Assembly: GCF_964355755.1 (NCBI RefSeq)
Contig: NC_092674.1
Span: 29,376,001 to 29,440,000, forward strand
Length of the DNA stretch: 64,000 nt
Origin: Antedon mediterranea
Taxonomy: Eukaryota > Echinodermata > Crinoidea > Comatulida > Antedonidae
Direction of reading: 5' to 3'
In this document: in pieces, positions 40,134 through 47,114 of the stretch
Position numbering within the stretch: the first letter of the stretch is position 1
Layout of the letters: the number at the start of each line of letters is the position of its first letter
Program-made: the position numbers and the translations under genes
Notes under the pieces: generated by a model
Seen by the model: only the letters and a program-made list of their open reading frames with translations
Told to the model about the DNA's origin: nothing
The model's database searches: none

Positions 40134-40191
40134 TATAAAAACGAAATGAGATTTTTTTTACAACCCTTTGTGTTCTGCCGTTGAGTTTGAG
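40134..40191 (+). promoter_or_regulatory. TATA box and 5'TOP-like start of the snoRNA host gene
   Basis: TATAAAA at 40134-40140 lies about 30 bp upstream of a pyrimidine start CCCTTTG (40164). The short first exon is followed by the donor GAG|gtgagg at 40191/40192. A terminal-oligopyrimidine start is the norm for snoRNA host genes. DNAAF6 runs the other way from about 100 bp upstream, so the promoter may be bidirectional. Confidence 0.6.
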
Positions 40192-40775
40192 GTGAGGTTC
40201 ATTTTTGTGGTGCTTGTTTGTATAAGTAATTTATCCTAATATCACTATTTTTACAAGTATATTTTAGGTAGAATTATAAAGCTATATAACAACATTTAAA
40301 AGTATGTAAAATCCACATTAATAAGTATGTAAATAGAGTTTAAATTATGAATATTAAAGTCGCCGGACGTGCATGATGGAAAATGAACACGTGCCATCAG
40401 TAGGCCACTCTGCCATTGATTGGCGGGCACGTGGTGGTGGTTGTAGAGTTGGGCCTAGCCTTAGCTAGGCAGAGCCTAGAAAGACTTGCGCATTATTTAG
40501 AATAAAAAGAATGTTTAACCAATTGTTATTTAATTTAATAAATGTACAAAATGATTTTTATTTTACTGCTTTAAATTAATTTCATTTTTATGTATGTACA
40601 TCTTGTCATCTAACTAGCTAGGACATAGCTAATTAAATTAATAATTGATTGAAGCTAGATTAAATAGGCCTACTATGCAGAATATAAAAAAGAATTCTGT
40701 TCTGGCAATGATTTTCAAACAATATTTCACAAAATCCTACTTTCTAAATATAGCCGGCCCTAGCTAGACATATTT

Positions 40776-40870
40776 CAGCAATGATGATAAATTGACCTCC
40801 AATCCGCAGTTTCTACCATAAGAGCTTGTCTCTCATGATGGCATTTAACCTTCCTTGGATGTCTGAGCTG
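40776..40870 (+). ncRNA. SNORD14: C/D-box snoRNA U14 (SNORD14), copy 1
   Basis: Box C ATGATGA is at 40781-40787 and box D CTGA at 40863-40866, with a CAGC/GCTG terminal stem. It has both U14 domains: CCGCAGTTTCTACC (domain A, 18S complementarity) and CTTCCTTGGATGT just upstream of box D (domain B, complementary to 18S ACATCCAAGGAAGG). U14 is needed for 18S processing and guides one 2'-O-methylation. It lies in host intron 1. Confidence 0.92.
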
Positions 40871-41100
40871 ACTATAAAATAATGTTTTGTGATTGGCTGA
40901 AACAAAATCCTCTACATGCTAATTTTCAAACTTTTAATTTTTGTTTCAGGTGTGCAGTTGATTTTAAACTGATATGGTTGGGTGGTTAAGAGATAATGTT
41001 TTTGGTTAGTAAAAGTTTTTTTTTTTAAATAGCATAACTACAATACAACCATAATAATTATTACATTTTGTGAAACACGAGACAAACTTAATTACAATAT

Positions 41101-41187
41101 GCAAGTTATGATGAGAAGGTAAATTGGGTACCATAGTGACCACGGTCACAGTGATGAGTACACAATACCTTGGAGAACTGAGGCTTG
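41101..41187 (+). ncRNA. C/D-box snoRNA family B, copy 1
   Basis: Box C ATGATGA at 41108-41114, box C' GTGATGA at 41151-41157, box D CTGA at 41178-41181, stem CAAG/CTTG. The D-box guide ACACAATACCTTGGAGAA is identical in the second copy. I recall a UCUCCAAGGU segment in metazoan 28S that could pair, but this is not verified. Orthologue not recognised. Host intron 2. Confidence 0.85.
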
Positions 41188-41432
41188 TCGTATTTGAAAA
41201 CATTTAATTACAAATTACTTAATAGTATTATTTATGATGGAGGATTATATTTTTTATTCCAGGTATTGATCGATGGTTTGGTTCTATATTCATTCAAAAT
41301 GGTAAATTTAAATGGTACGCCTTTATTTTATTTTTTATTATCCAGAAAATGGTTCGGAAAGGCTGATAAATGTATGTATTTTCTACCAATGTGTGTTTGG
41401 TAGTGGATACTTTTAGCAATCATAGTTGTTTT

Positions 41433-41531
41433 GTTGGCAATGATGATAATCTGACCTCCAATCCGCAGTTTCTACCATAAGAGCTTGTCTCTCATGATGG
41501 CATTTAACCTTCCTTGGATGTCTGAGCCAAC
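41433..41531 (+). ncRNA. SNORD14: C/D-box snoRNA U14 (SNORD14), copy 2
   Basis: Box C is at 41440-41446 and box D at 41522-41525, with a strong GTTGGC/GCCAAC terminal stem. Both 18S-complementary domains are the same as in copy 1, except for a few changes next to box C. Host intron 3. Confidence 0.92.
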
Positions 41532-41775
41532 AAAAGAATCTAAAAAAAATGTTAATTTATTGTATCTACACTATTATAAATTCCCTAATTTTATTTACAT
41601 TCAGTTTGCAGGCTGTACACCTGAAAGATGACATTAAAGACAGTTTGTGTTTAATGTAAAGGTAATATTCTGTTTAATTATATTTATTACGAATACTGTG
41701 ATTAAAAAGCTGTATTACTGAATTTGAAGATTGTGTTGTACTCCAGTATGTAATGTAAAGTTTTTAGAATGTCTT

Positions 41776-41874
41776 GTCAGCAATGATGATAATCTGACCT
41801 CCAATCCGCAGTTTCTACCATAAGAGCTTGTCTCTCATGATGGCATTTAACCTTCCTTGGATGTCTGAGCTGAC
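41776..41874 (+). ncRNA. SNORD14: C/D-box snoRNA U14 (SNORD14), copy 3
   Basis: Box C is at 41783-41789 and box D at 41865-41868, with stem GTCAGC/GCTGAC. The core is identical to copy 2; only the stem has changed, by compensated substitutions. Host intron 4. Confidence 0.92.
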
Positions 41875-42070
41875 TAAAAATAATAAACCATTATTTACTT
41901 TAACTAAACTTTGTTGCAAAATAAAATTTGTAATCCTTTTTCAGATTTTAGAAAATCATGACTACCAAGCATGCATGACCTAAAGGTAAAAACTCATTTA
42001 AATTATTCCAATGGGATAACTAGAAAACTTAGCTGAATGTTTAGTGCTTTCTTGAAATTTGGTTAAATAT

Positions 42071-42158
42071 GCAAGTTATGATGAGAAGGTAAATTGGGTA
42101 CCATAGTGACCACGGTTACATTGATGAGTACACAATACCTTGGAGAACTGAGGCTTGC
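42071..42158 (+). ncRNA. C/D-box snoRNA family B, copy 2
   Basis: Box C ATGATGA is at 42078-42084, C' TTGATGA, and box D CTGA at 42148-42151, with stem GCAAG/CTTGC. It differs from copy 1 at only a few positions. Host intron 5. Confidence 0.87.
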
Positions 42159-42455
42159 TTGATTTGACAAATATCCATTAGGGTCAGGGGTCAATTTGTG
42201 GAGATGGAAAATTGACAGTAATGTTGTAATTGACATTTATTTTTCATTTCGGTAGCATCGTTTAGATGAGAATGCGGAAAGTGTAACGACATGGACAGTG
42301 TGAGGGCGACGGTAAAATGGTAGGGATGTACATAATCCTGTGTACAAATCCATAAAATGTCTCTGAGACTACCTATATTTCCAGAATCAGTAATTACAGG
42401 TAAATTTCTTCAAACAATGTTTTACAATTAATACTTGTTTAATGGGTTTGGTAGG

Positions 42456-42546
42456 CAGGCAATGATGATTTAATCTTTTTTCCCCAGCTTATCGATAAAT
42501 GCTGACTTTGTTGCTATTAGCATAAGCCAAACCAAATCTGAGCTTG
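42456..42546 (+). ncRNA. C/D-box snoRNA family C, copy 1
   Basis: Box C ATGATGA at 42462-42468, box D CTGA at 42538-42541, stem CAGGC/GCTTG. Two conserved blocks are possible guides: CCCCAGCTTATCGATA before a D'-like CTGA, and AAGCCAAACCAAAT before box D. I cannot assign an rRNA or snRNA target. Host intron 6. Confidence 0.83.
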
Positions 42547-42784
42547 TTTCAACCATAAAGTCCTTTAACCTCTACATGTCACTAGATTTACAATGATTGA
42601 TTTCTATGTATTTTTATGTTGATATTCGGTTTCTATCTCAACAGCTGATTCAGTTTTTAACTTGATGGAAAACATCAAATGGAATCGTTTACAGTAAGTT
42701 TTTGTTTTTATAAGTAATTATGTAATAAATAAACACAAGTAATAATGTAATAAATAAACACAAGTAATAATGTAATTAATAGGA

Positions 42785-42880
42785 CACATGTTGTGATGAT
42801 TTAATCTTTTTTCCCCAGCTTATCGATACATGATGACGTTTCTTGCTATTAGCATAAGCCAAACCAAATCTGAACATGTG
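42785..42880 (+). ncRNA. C/D-box snoRNA family C, copy 2
   Basis: Box C GTGATGA at 42793-42799, box D CTGA at 42870-42873, and a 7-bp stem CACATGT/ACATGTG. Both conserved blocks of family C are present; the D' position reads 'gatga' rather than CTGA. Host intron 7. Confidence 0.83.
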
Positions 42881-43007
42881 TATAAATAGATGAAACATAT
42901 TTATTCATCTTGCATACATATTTTTAATAAATCGTTTTTATTTATATTTCAGAAACTGAACAATAAAGTTGTACAGCTGTGAGTATTTTTTGTCAATAGC
43001 ATCTTAC

Positions 43008-43131
43008 AGCTCTGTCCACACTATCAAAATAGTTTGACAAGAGTGTGATATCCCCAAATATGGTAGTGATATGGCATGTCTATATATGGGCACATCATAT
43101 CATAAATTTTGATAGTGTAAACAGAGCCTTG
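43008..43131. mobile_element. MITE family 1, copy 13
   Basis: 'agctctgtccacactatcaa' to 'gatagtgtaaacagagcctt'. In the last intron of the snoRNA host, directly upstream of snoRNA C-3. Confidence 0.82.
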
Positions 43132-43151
43132 GTTTGGTTTTGCAGCTAAAG

Positions 43152-43250
43152 TTTGTTCACGATGATGATTGAACTTTTTTCCCCAGCTTATCGATATGTG
43201 CTGACTATCAATGCTATATGCTTAAGCCAAACCAAATCTGAGTGAACAAA
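43152..43250 (+). ncRNA. C/D-box snoRNA family C, copy 3
   Basis: Box C GATGATGA at 43161-43168, D' CTGA at 43201-43204, box D CTGA at 43238-43241, and a perfect 9-bp stem TTTGTTCAC/GTGAACAAA. Host intron 8, just upstream of a transposon-like insertion. Confidence 0.85.
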
Positions 43251-43270
43251 TGCCAGGACTGGTCCTAGGG

Positions 43271-45541
43271 CACGGCTGTTTCATAGCGACATAAAGTAGT
43301 GAGCCCTCTATCGGTAAAAGTTAAATATTTTCGAAATTGAGGGCGCTATACAAACGCGGAAACGATTTGTTTTTATTTAGCGAAAATAATGACATCATAT
43401 TTAATCAACGAATCAGAAGCCTTTGGTTGTTGAAATCGGTGAGATTTCTTATGAATATTCATTAGGAATGTCCTGGTTGTTGTGGGAATCAATTTTGAGA
43501 CACGAAGCTTGAATACTTTTGTCGTGGTGAGTAGTTGAAATAATGAGATATTTTAATAGTTTTTTTGTTGCTTTTTGTTATGATTACGGCAAAAATTGCA
43601 CCACGTGTCTGTTGAATTTTTTAAAGAACCAAAATAAACATTTTTGGGTACTTAAATAGTTGTTGAACCTCTAGAATTAAAATTGTTTTAACGGCAGATC
43701 TAGGCCCAGTTTACCACTCATTCAAAGTTTCATGGCTAAACCCACGTGTTTTACGTAGGTGGGTGGGCTTTAAACACACTAGAGCCTATACTCAGAGGAC
43801 TGTTGTATCTAGTTACTATGGCCAGGATCTGTTAATTAAATAAGTTCAGGCTTTTGGTGTTCAAGAAAAATAAAAGATTTCTATTTATAATAATATACAG
43901 GCCTAGAAGCGTACTTAACAATAATTAATACATTTATTGAGCCTATATGGTACGAAACGAGGCCTATATAGGCACATACTATAGAGTAGCGCCATATATA
44001 GACATCGACTCGATACTTTGCCTATTTATGTCATGATTTTTAGTCGACAAAGGCAAGGCAAAATCAATATTTTTTTTATTTTTGCATCACGCATGTTGAC
44101 CCCTTGTATGCATATTCCAGCACCATCACTGCTTGCGAATTATTATTATAGCGTGTGTAAAATATATATTAGTTTCAATTGATTGCGTACAATTTTTTTT
44201 ATAGGATGAAAACCTTTATTCCTTGGACGTGTGATTTCACTTGACCTTTCACGAATGATTGCAAGCTCAAAATGGAACTGTTTTATCAACTGGTGTTCAT
44301 GCTTCCAATTACTAATCCATTCATAGAAGAAAGTTCCAATGAAGTCAATAGTGACTGAAAATAGATACGAGACCGGACATATTTCGACTTTAGTTCATCG
44401 AATTATGTAAATTTATCTAAGAAAAGATTTACGTTAAAATATAAATATTAATATTTTGAAGCTAATCTAGATTGTGATGACATTTTATAATTGTTGTAGG
44501 CCTATTGTTTTTTAGTTTTAACACAAAATATTAAATTATATTTTTATTAGACTAGAGTAAATATACTATATAAAGTGATAATATGCAATTTAAAATATAC
44601 AATCAACTGGATATTGAATCAATGTTTTTGTTATTTCCAAGTCTACATCTACTTAGTATCATGCCTATCAGCCTAGGCCCATTATCTATTTAAATATAGG
44701 GACATACATAGTAGGTATACTGATACTGTACTTGATGCCTAAACAATAAATTAATTCCTATTATAAATAGGTCTAGCCATACATTTCCTAAAAAATACGG
44801 CATGTTACAAATTGTAATAATAATGAAAATAAGTATAAGACCTACTTTTATGTTCAAAACACAATTTTTATATGTAGGCCTAATTAACAAAATGTAGGCC
44901 TACTTCACTACTATTACTAGCCTAGGTAGGCTACTGTGACCGTGTAAGTCCACCCACCAAGCCTATCAGACCTACACAGTAGGCCTAAGAATCACAAATT
45001 AATTAAAATAGCCATTTTATATGCTTAATTTTAACATAGTTGCAGGTTTGCCGTTAAACTGGGATTTTGCAGGTTGATAACTAAATAGTTTAAGATTACT
45101 ATTTTCTTAACAAATCTCCGAAAAAAAATTCGACGGACGAACGAGAAGACGATAAATCTGACGAAATTTCTGCCGTAAATTGAGGGCGCTTTAAATATTA
45201 ATTTCGCAGATTGTTTTGTATTGCAAGGCCTTCAATAAAGTAGCGATATTTTTATCTACAAACACAAATTTCGTAATATGTTTATTATTTTATGTTCTTG
45301 AAAACTTAGTAAAACAAATAATAACAATATTAGACATTTTATTAATTATTTTAGAATTCTATGTATAAATATAAAAGCATTATTATGCATTAAGAAAGTA
45401 AACGAACTATGCAGCGTTGCTAAGTATCGGCGGTGCATGGAAACAATGAAAAAGTGTTCGAGAACACGCGGCTAGCGAATAAAAGGAAAAGCGCGTTGTA
45501 AACACTTAATGTCGCGCATTACGTGCGTTGAAACAGCCGTG
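43271..45541. mobile_element. 2.27-kb non-autonomous DNA transposon with CACGGCTGTTTCA ends
   Basis: The left end CACGGCTGTTTCA (43271-43283) and right end TGAAACAGCCGTG (45529-45541) are perfect inverted repeats. Both are flanked by AGGG (43267-43270 and 45542-45545), a 4-bp target duplication. The CAC...GTG ends with a 4-bp duplication fit Chapaev-type (CMC) elements. A subterminal 'ttgagggcgct' occurs near both ends (about 43340 and 45180). No transposase frame is seen. It sits in the last intron of the snoRNA host; removing it leaves an intron of about 0.4 kb, like its siblings. Confidence 0.55.
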
Positions 45542-45915
45542 AGGGATCATTGCCTAATTATATTCAATTAAAAAAGAAAACAATTGCCAGTTCATTCATT
45601 GTGCTTTTCACGCCTCTGCATAAATTAATTTTGTAACCATATTTTGTCTTTCAGAAACTAATTGGATGTCAACTAAGAAGATAAAGTAAATGTGAGCTGC
45701 TGTTTACAATTTTATTTGAATGTCTATAGTGAATGTTAGACAGTGATTTGTCCAAAACCGCAGTCTTTTAGCGGATATTAATTTCAAGATATGTTAATAT
45801 TTTTAATAAATCTATAAAGTATTGCTTTGTAAGAAATGAATAAATTACTATAAAGTGTTAAAAGGCAAAAATGTTGTATAATTTGTGTTTTTGAATAAAA
45901 AAATGTCTTATTTCA

Positions 45916-47114
45916 ATACTTTGATTTAAAGTATGTATGTGTACTATTGCGTGGTTTCGTTTCATCGTGCGACTCTGCAGCAGTCCCAACATTCTGCACA
46001 TGCTCATTTGTTTGTTTCAACTGGCCCAATAATCTGTCGCGCTCTGTTTCTATTCAAGCAGTGCTAGTAGATTGCGTATCTAGTGAAAAGGAAAGGTTTC
46101 TGCTCATTAGGAGACTGTGACTAACTTTGGTTAAGGAAATCTTATCTTGCGCCCGTTTCCAACACAAATTAGATGCTCATGGTGTATTGACGCAACAATG
46201 CAATGAATGAAATCATATCACATAGGTGGATTCAAAGGGGGCCCAGTCTAAATTTTGCAAATTGTAATGCAAAAGATAGACAATAATTTCAGGTCAGCAT
46301 CTAAAATTTGCCATTTTTAGGCTGTGGTTCTCCCTATACTGGATTTTTCTGTTTCACAAGAATAAACACTGCTGGAACCAGTGTATATCCTGTATTTCCA
46401 TATAATTATAAAGGGCTAGTTTATCCATGGGCCTATAAATTGGTTCCATGGTTTATCTAACGCAAGTTTTTTTACTACTAGAATTCCAAGCCTACTAATT
46501 TAATTTGACTAAATTGGTATTAATCCCCAAACAAGGGCTGCAAATATTCTTTAAAATACTAGGATTAAATCATTACAGATAACATTTCCTTAAGACTAAA
46601 GAATGCTTGCATAAATAATAAAAAAATGTAGTGCAATATTATTAAAAAGTTGATTACCCTATCTATTTGATATTGGTACATGCCAACCTTCGCTATTTAT
46701 TACCTCAAAGTATCTAATCCAATATTTGTGAGACATTGCATTTAAAACTATTCGTGCCAAGCGAACAAAGCCGCCTACAAAGTAAATCCAATACCTCTAT
46801 TCCTATTGTAATTCAACAAACAAAAGTAAAATCCTTCCTAGAGCGATATGGTTGAATAATTTCACATGCAATCAACTCAGACCGACTGTTGACTGCTTCC
46901 TGGCAAAGCATTAATTTCTGTCTGTTAATCTAGTCTAGTTTATACAGTGCTTTAAGAAAAGCTGGTATGTTGTGAAGCAAGTTAAGCTGGTTTTATATTC
47001 CATTGGGAGATTTCAACGAGGAAGAAGGAAATAGCATTTTTTATACCTGTTGTTTATTTGCTATGCTTTATAGTCTTGCAAATACTGTGCAAAAAAAGAT
47101 ACGTTGATGCCAGT
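45916..47114. other. Intergenic region and likely promoter/5' UTR of the LMO7/LIMCH1-like gene
   Basis: No coding exon, RNA gene or organised repeat is recognised. The first coding exon of the next gene begins at 47115. An upstream in-frame Met at 47058 exists but adds a hydrophobic stretch that does not fit the family. Confidence 0.35.

Follow-up and report, generated by a model that had tools for sequence, protein, structure and literature searches.

A probable non-coding small nucleolar RNA host gene with U14, U55/U39-type and SNORD12-type box C/D units in Antedon mediterranea

We have analyzed a stretch of 64,000 nucleotides (nt) of contig NC_092674.1 of the crinoid Antedon mediterranea, hereafter the window, in which a candidate small nucleolar RNA (snoRNA) host gene spans positions 40134-45915 on the plus strand. 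Eight box C/D units lie there at the positions given in the original prediction, in the order U14, B, U14, U14, B, C, C, C, and this order and the division into three families are borne out by the sequence and by an Rfam scan read by E-value. The naming of the families can now be refined: B carries a guide of the U55/U39 type, for the 28S-Cm2791 site, and the C units belong to SNORD12, whose site is 28S-Gm3878. The proposed span does hold a gene, but about 40% of it (43271-45541) is a transposon located in the last intron. The locus is very probably a snoRNA host gene of RNA polymerase II (Pol II) that belongs to the SNHG/GAS5/UHG type and has no protein product, and the gene appears to serve solely as a carrier of eight snoRNAs for rRNA processing and methylation. 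An Rfam scan of the window at gathering scores was empty. Automatic annotation would thus miss the locus, since all eight units fall below these scores, and routine pipelines would leave it blank, which constitutes an annotation gap.

The three U14 (SNORD14) units, all on the plus strand, are found at 40776-40870 (copy a), 41435-41529 (copy b) and 41778-41872 (copy c). Searching Rfam with the eight units, as had been proposed, assigned these three to RF00016 and the C units to RF00581 by E-value, all below gathering. The U14 units score 62.5, 62.0 and 60.7 bits, respectively, with E-values of 6e-12 to 2e-11 over the full model. Because these E-values are of the order of 1e-11, the identity of the U14 units is in little doubt. 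C and D boxes and a terminal stem are present in them, the stem of copy b being 10 bp long (TTTTGTTGGC/GCCAACAAAA) and that of copy c being GTCAGC/GCTGAC. U14 is needed to make 18S rRNA and is among the few snoRNAs required for rRNA processing itself. Its classical contacts with 18S are two complementarities, domain A for processing and domain B for methylation. Both are present against the 18S of the same genome, as seen in copy a: 14 bp with ACATCCAAGGAAGG, located before box D (domain B) and reached by none of 100 dinucleotide shuffles, and 12 bp with GAAACTGCGGAT (domain A), reached by one of 100. We can predict that the 2'-O-methyl site guided by U14 is the first C of CCAAGG in the 18S sequence ACATCCAAGG. 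The ribosomal DNA (rDNA) of this genome was located through 5.8S on contig C2, and the rRNA sequences were read from loci L013-L017. The 28S matches in L013, L015, L016 and L017 break off at differing points, e.g. at model position 1888 in L013, and that of L016 is spread across 4.4 kb. Many copies of the rDNA thus appear to be interrupted or to contain inserts.

The two B units, at about 41104-41188 (C box 41108, C' 41151, D box 41178) and about 42074-42158 (C box 42078, D box 42148), both on the plus strand, are 93% alike and closed by the terminal stems GCAAGTT/GGCTTGT and GCAAGTT/GGCTTGC, respectively. Their D-box guide, ACCTTGGAGAACTGA, is identical, letter for letter, to the consensus of fungal Afu_294 and plant snoZ101 in Rfam. 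The snoZ101 family (RF00358, clan CL00057) guides plant 25S Cm1850, the equivalent of human 28S Cm2791, which is the site of U55/U39, members of the same Rfam clan (PMC3511168). Against 28S of the same genome, the guide before box D pairs with TCTCCAAGGTG (pairing partner TCTCCAAGGT) over 11 positions, 10 of them Watson-Crick and one G-U. This duplex length is reached by 10 of 100 rRNA shuffles and is weak taken alone. For both B and C the target claims rest on the register of the guide before box D or D' and on identity with known guides, because the duplexes alone are weak. The predicted 2'-O-methyl site for B is the first C of CCAAGG in TCTCCAAGG of 28S. Another known site, Am2802, belongs to RF00189 (SNORD95) in the same table as RF00358 (PMC3511168). 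It lies 11 nt downstream of the B target, which is consistent with the sequence. Am2802 was placed with the guide register of SNORD95. As judged from its guide, B works like U55/U39. As a whole, however, B matches no Rfam model above cut-off (RF00358, 19.1 bits versus a cut-off of 44), and it is not ranked in a genome-wide search with RF00157. Descent of B from the ancestor of vertebrate U39/U55 is no more than a possibility, as outside the guide it is unlike them and RF00157 misses it. For the D' guide of B no rRNA match was found; its TGGGTA core resembles the snoZ101 D' guide, a pairing that is unsupported. Sense similarity of B to 18S is limited to chance-level words. Just after box C, each B copy has a GAAGGTA to which its own 28S guide, ACCTTGG, can pair, giving a rod-like fold (z -1.7 and -2.3 in the two copies). 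This internal pairing may be a side effect or may control the access to the guide.

The three C units, related to SNORD12/SNORD106, follow on the plus strand: copy 1 at 42452-42550 (RF00581, 29.0 bits; C box 42462, D box 42538), copy 2 at 42784-42881 (36.0 bits; C box 42793, D box 42870) and copy 3 at 43152-43250 (42.5 bits; C box 43162, D box 43238). Copy 1, with an E-value of only 0.01, owes its identification to its resemblance to the other two copies. The D' guide TCTTTTTTCCCC, which sits before a D'-like CTTA, pairs with GGGGAAAGAAGA of 28S (read from rDNA locus L016) at the human G3878 site through 11 Watson-Crick pairs and one G-U pair; a duplex of this length is reached by 9 of 100 shuffles and is weak alone. 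The third G of GGGGAAAG in 28S is the predicted 2'-O-methyl site. A second guide of the C units, before box D, was considered and rejected as being at chance level (63-65 of 100 shuffles).

Terminal-stem pairing was tested within each copy and between copies. The C copies carry three different stem sequences, namely an 8-bp stem including three G-U pairs in copy 1, ACACATGT/ACATGTGT in copy 2 and the 10-bp GTTTGTTCAC/GTGAACAAAT in copy 3. Within the respective copies these stems form 8, 8 and 10 bp, whereas no more than 2 bp are possible with the partner strand of a sister copy. That they pair only with their own partner argues strongly for function, and decayed copies are not expected where stems have changed on both sides together. 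The U14b stem is likewise private (10 bp with its own partner, at most 4 with those of the others), and the U14a and U14c stems are of 5-6 bp, with a sequence unlike that of U14b. Between B1 and B2, a C-to-T change within the D'-C' hairpin converts a G-C pair to a G-U pair. Global folding energy was uninformative for most units (z -2.3 to +0.3).

The genome searches covered the 354-Mb genome outside the stretches reading N, which take in parts of the rDNA and could take in hsc70. Over this sequence, no other U14 was found by covariance search or with an 18-nt guide-plus-D pattern allowing one mismatch, and no other copy of B was found. C copy 3 was the sole SNORD12 match at E<0.001, and searches for better U55/U39 copies with RF00157 and RF00358 gave noise only. 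The locus thus looks like the only U14 supply of the genome. These results bear on the idea that the array consists of pseudogenes, i.e. duplicates, decayed or silent, of snoRNAs whose expressed genes lie elsewhere. The scores under the Rfam thresholds and the places where the C copies differ among themselves would agree with it. However, guides and boxes are intact, the stems have changed on both sides yet still pair, and with no other U14, B or strong SNORD12 detected the array would have to supply an essential RNA; we consider a pseudogene array extremely unlikely. At the other end stands a more far-reaching proposal, in our opinion rather unlikely: that this lineage obtains its entire U14 from one non-coding host, which also carries every SNORD12 and U55/U39-type copy that can be detected, with three guide activities under one 5' terminal oligopyrimidine (5'TOP)-like promoter, and that the SNORD12 triplet might be ancient and shared with ZFAS1.

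The original prediction of a multi-snoRNA host with a TATA box, a putative 5'TOP-like start and tiny exons is supported by the sequence and by splice-site scores, and both the promoter and the splice sites are strongly suggested. The TATA box, TATAAAAA, occupies 40134-40141 on the plus strand, and a pyrimidine start is proposed from the sequence at the CCCTTT at 40164, 30 nt further. Pol II promoters with a TATA box typically show such a distance of 30 nt. Putative exon 1 (40164-40191) would start with CCCTTTG and end at GAG/GTGAGG, the best donor in the region (score 12.0). On the same strand, putative exon 2 (40950-41004) has a good acceptor, TTTGTTTCAG, and a weak donor, TTG/GTTAGT, and exon 3 (41263-41301) has an acceptor scoring 10.2, 81 nt after the D box. 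Splice-site scores further point to exon 4 (41605-41661, with a possible start at 41612), exon 5 (41945-41985), exon 6 (42256-42311, with an alternative donor at 42299), a possible and uncertain exon 7 of 15 nt (42385-42399; acceptor 6.5, donor 8.7), exon 8 (42645-42693) and exon 9 (42953-42978; donor GCT/GTGAGT, acceptor score 5.2 only). The putative terminal exon (45655-45919) begins after the acceptor TTTGTCTTTCAG and carries AATAAA poly(A) signals at about 45894, its end being predicted. Judged by these splice signals, each intron holds one snoRNA.

This arrangement was evaluated with a splice-pair test, in which box D had to be followed at 65-110 nt by an acceptor and then, 15-80 nt further, by a donor. 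Such pairs occur, at 76-104 nt after D, in six of the seven testable units versus 5.8% of the other window positions on both strands. The spacing is in keeping with the tendency of intronic C/D snoRNAs to lie some tens of nt upstream of the branch point (PMC10234308). The excess of such pairs speaks against a plant- or yeast-like polycistron, in which the snoRNAs would be cut from an unspliced precursor and the apparent exons would be chance splice signals. The units are tightly clustered, as in the arrays common in plants and some fungi (PMC7277114), but metazoan C/D snoRNAs are nearly all intronic (PMC13228274, PMC7277114), and a polycistron is most unlikely here. Could the spliced host instead encode a protein in short exons, its frame missed through wrong exon calls? 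In vertebrates U14 and U55 do reside in the protein genes HSPA8 and RPS8 (PMC2653536), and the exon boundaries used here are inferred ones. The joined exons, of about 630 nt, have as their longest open reading frame (ORF) one of 29 amino acids, equal to shuffles (median 30, 95th percentile 56), so that the host is without a visible frame, as had been claimed. Moreover, when the region is read from stop to stop, the ORFs are all short and unrelated, and the short peptides match no NCBIfam model, a weak test as these are bacterial and archaeal families. We judge a coding host to be very unlikely.

Several points weigh against the assignment as a non-coding snoRNA host. The U14 scores are 1.5-3.3 bits short of the RF00016 gathering score of 64, and the C scores all lie below the RF00581 gathering score of 43, which is curatorial, the best being 42.5 bits with an E-value of 1.9e-6. 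The RF00016 threshold too is curatorial and not a defining functional feature, and the functional elements of U14 are intact. The C at 40164 is preceded by an A; a strict pyrimidine-C start would be 40165. The exon 2 donor, after U14a, fails the splice-pair threshold, the exon 9 acceptor is weak, and the 15-nt exon 7 is doubtful, exons so short being unusual. The splice models are approximate metazoan matrices, handwritten and not trained on the host species. The analysis covered one genome, whereas a drift of exons beside conserved snoRNAs would show among relatives. Finally, transcription, splicing and methylation are what we infer only, from the DNA.

The locus could function as follows. 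A TATA promoter with a pyrimidine (5'TOP-like) start would drive a transcript of about ten tiny exons, and splicing would free introns with one box C/D snoRNA each. In most of these introns the snoRNA would lie about 76-104 nt before the 3' splice site. The terminal stem would join boxes C and D, allowing the core of the small nucleolar ribonucleoprotein (SNU13, NOP56, NOP58 and fibrillarin) to assemble, while exonucleases would trim the debranched intron during this assembly. The predicted products are three U14 RNAs, which would act in pre-18S processing and guide methylation of 18S at the site of human C462. They further comprise two U55/U39-type RNAs and three SNORD12-type RNAs, guiding methylation of 28S at the sites of human C2791 and G3878, respectively. 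The RNA of the joined exons would probably be a by-product.

Known non-coding 5'TOP hosts with short exons and a TATA box include mammalian UHG, gas5, U17HG, U19HG and U50HG, a chicken gas5-like gene and fly Uhg (PMC7277114, PMC2653536, PMC13228274). The chicken gas5-like gene combines a TATA box, a 5'TOP and exons under 100 nt (PMC2653536), and pyrimidine-C initiation is found in snoRNA hosts (PMC6954239). The gene described here resembles the vertebrate GAS5/SNHG genes and Drosophila Uhg1-8 in having one C/D snoRNA per intron and exons under 100 nt except the last, as well as a TATA box, a putative pyrimidine start and no ORF beyond chance, features that are here read from sequence alone. 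It differs from them in its passengers (U14, U55/U39 and SNORD12) and in its head-to-head position with DNAAF6. In chicken, U14 lies in HSPA8 introns and U39/U55 in RPS8 (PMC2653536). The contrast drawn earlier with the vertebrate location of U14 in HSPA8 (PMC2653536, PMC7277114) holds, U14 not being so placed here. Like vertebrate HSPA8 (hsc70), the present gene has three intronic U14 copies, but HSPA8 encodes a protein and this host appears not to. In Neurospora crassa, the UHG-like cluster V includes CD16 and CD37, which are U14, in a non-coding polycistronic host with short ORFs only (PMC2780460). It thus shares U14 in a non-coding UHG-like host; it is, however, fungal, has an extra putative promoter before U14 and gives no sign of common descent. 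Human ZFAS1 is the non-coding host of SNORD12, SNORD12B and SNORD12C, a family targeting 28S-Gm3878 (PMC8393311). Both genes are non-coding hosts with three SNORD12-family members, but ZFAS1 carries SNORD12 members only (PMC8393311). We find no support for orthology with ZFAS1. ZNFX1, the known neighbour of ZFAS1, is not among the long ORFs or Pfam matches of the window, no search aimed at ZNFX1 having been made.

The gene is therefore a further member of a known host class and ordinary in mechanism, and the understanding of how such host genes work is unchanged. New here are the combination of snoRNAs, the head-to-head DNAAF6 neighbour and the failure to detect any further U14 in 354 Mb. The open literature yielded no paper about this gene, which is weak evidence of novelty. 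The identity of a snoRNA host has been considered free to change if its expression is broad (PMC3511168). That the only detectable source of U14 is a gene without apparent protein product fits this view (PMC3511168).

How the copies arose was also considered. The proposed duplication of whole exon-intron cassettes is not supported: similarity stops at the terminal stems, and spacers and exons are unlike. When the spacers, stripped of snoRNA units, were compared all against all, only weak scattered matches appeared (best E about 1e-3, with permissive scoring and AT-rich sequence), and the spacers upstream of B1 and B2 are 66% identical over 56 nt (E 0.07), which may reflect a duplication that is old and decayed. 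Two origins agree with the data, namely duplications that are old and have since decayed outside the snoRNAs, or the insertion of copied snoRNAs, without their surroundings, into the introns of a host suited to them. Such decay is expected of snoRNA host exons; SNHG RNAs are described as neutrally evolving (PMC11405852). Copying of snoRNAs into introns would be a kind of mobility that is reported to be ongoing (PMC3511168).

The transposable element in the last intron (43271-45541; 2271 bp, no strand assigned) has perfect 13-bp terminal inverted repeats (CACGGCTGTTTCA/TGAAACAGCCGTG) and is flanked on both sides by AGGG, a 4-bp direct repeat. The genome has four more copies of nearly full length, 97-98% identical, besides several partial ones. 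It is a recent DNA-transposon-like insertion of a recently active family, outside the function of the host. Through this insertion the putative acceptor that follows C copy 3, once about 140 nt away, has come to lie at a distance of about 2.4 kb. Stable stems compensate for long distances (PMC10234308), and the stem of C copy 3, the longest of its family, may do so here. Upstream of C copy 3 lies a short dispersed repeat resembling a miniature inverted-repeat transposable element (43005-43130; inverted ends CTCTGTCCACACTATC/GATAGTGTAAACAGAG), with at least about 40 matches genome-wide at 77-85%.

Next to the host gene lies an orthologue of DNAAF6 (PIH1D3) on the minus strand (36.8-39.7 kb; PIH1_CS domain, 2.2e-9). 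It begins at about 39.65 kb and points away, the two genes being head to head and about 0.5 kb apart. PIH proteins as a class include snoRNP assembly factors (PIH1D1). The adjacency of DNAAF6 to a snoRNA host is probably a coincidence. Minisatellite-like arrays on the minus strand, open in several frames, occur at 17.7-18.6 kb and at 38.7-39.0 kb, with repeats of approximately CVTYLCV and HYCTIK, the second array lying within a DNAAF6 intron. An exon for the C-terminal domain of BLTP1 (KIAA1109-like) is found at 0.8-1.2 kb on the plus strand (Pfam PF25040, 3.7e-16), and this gene probably extends further right.

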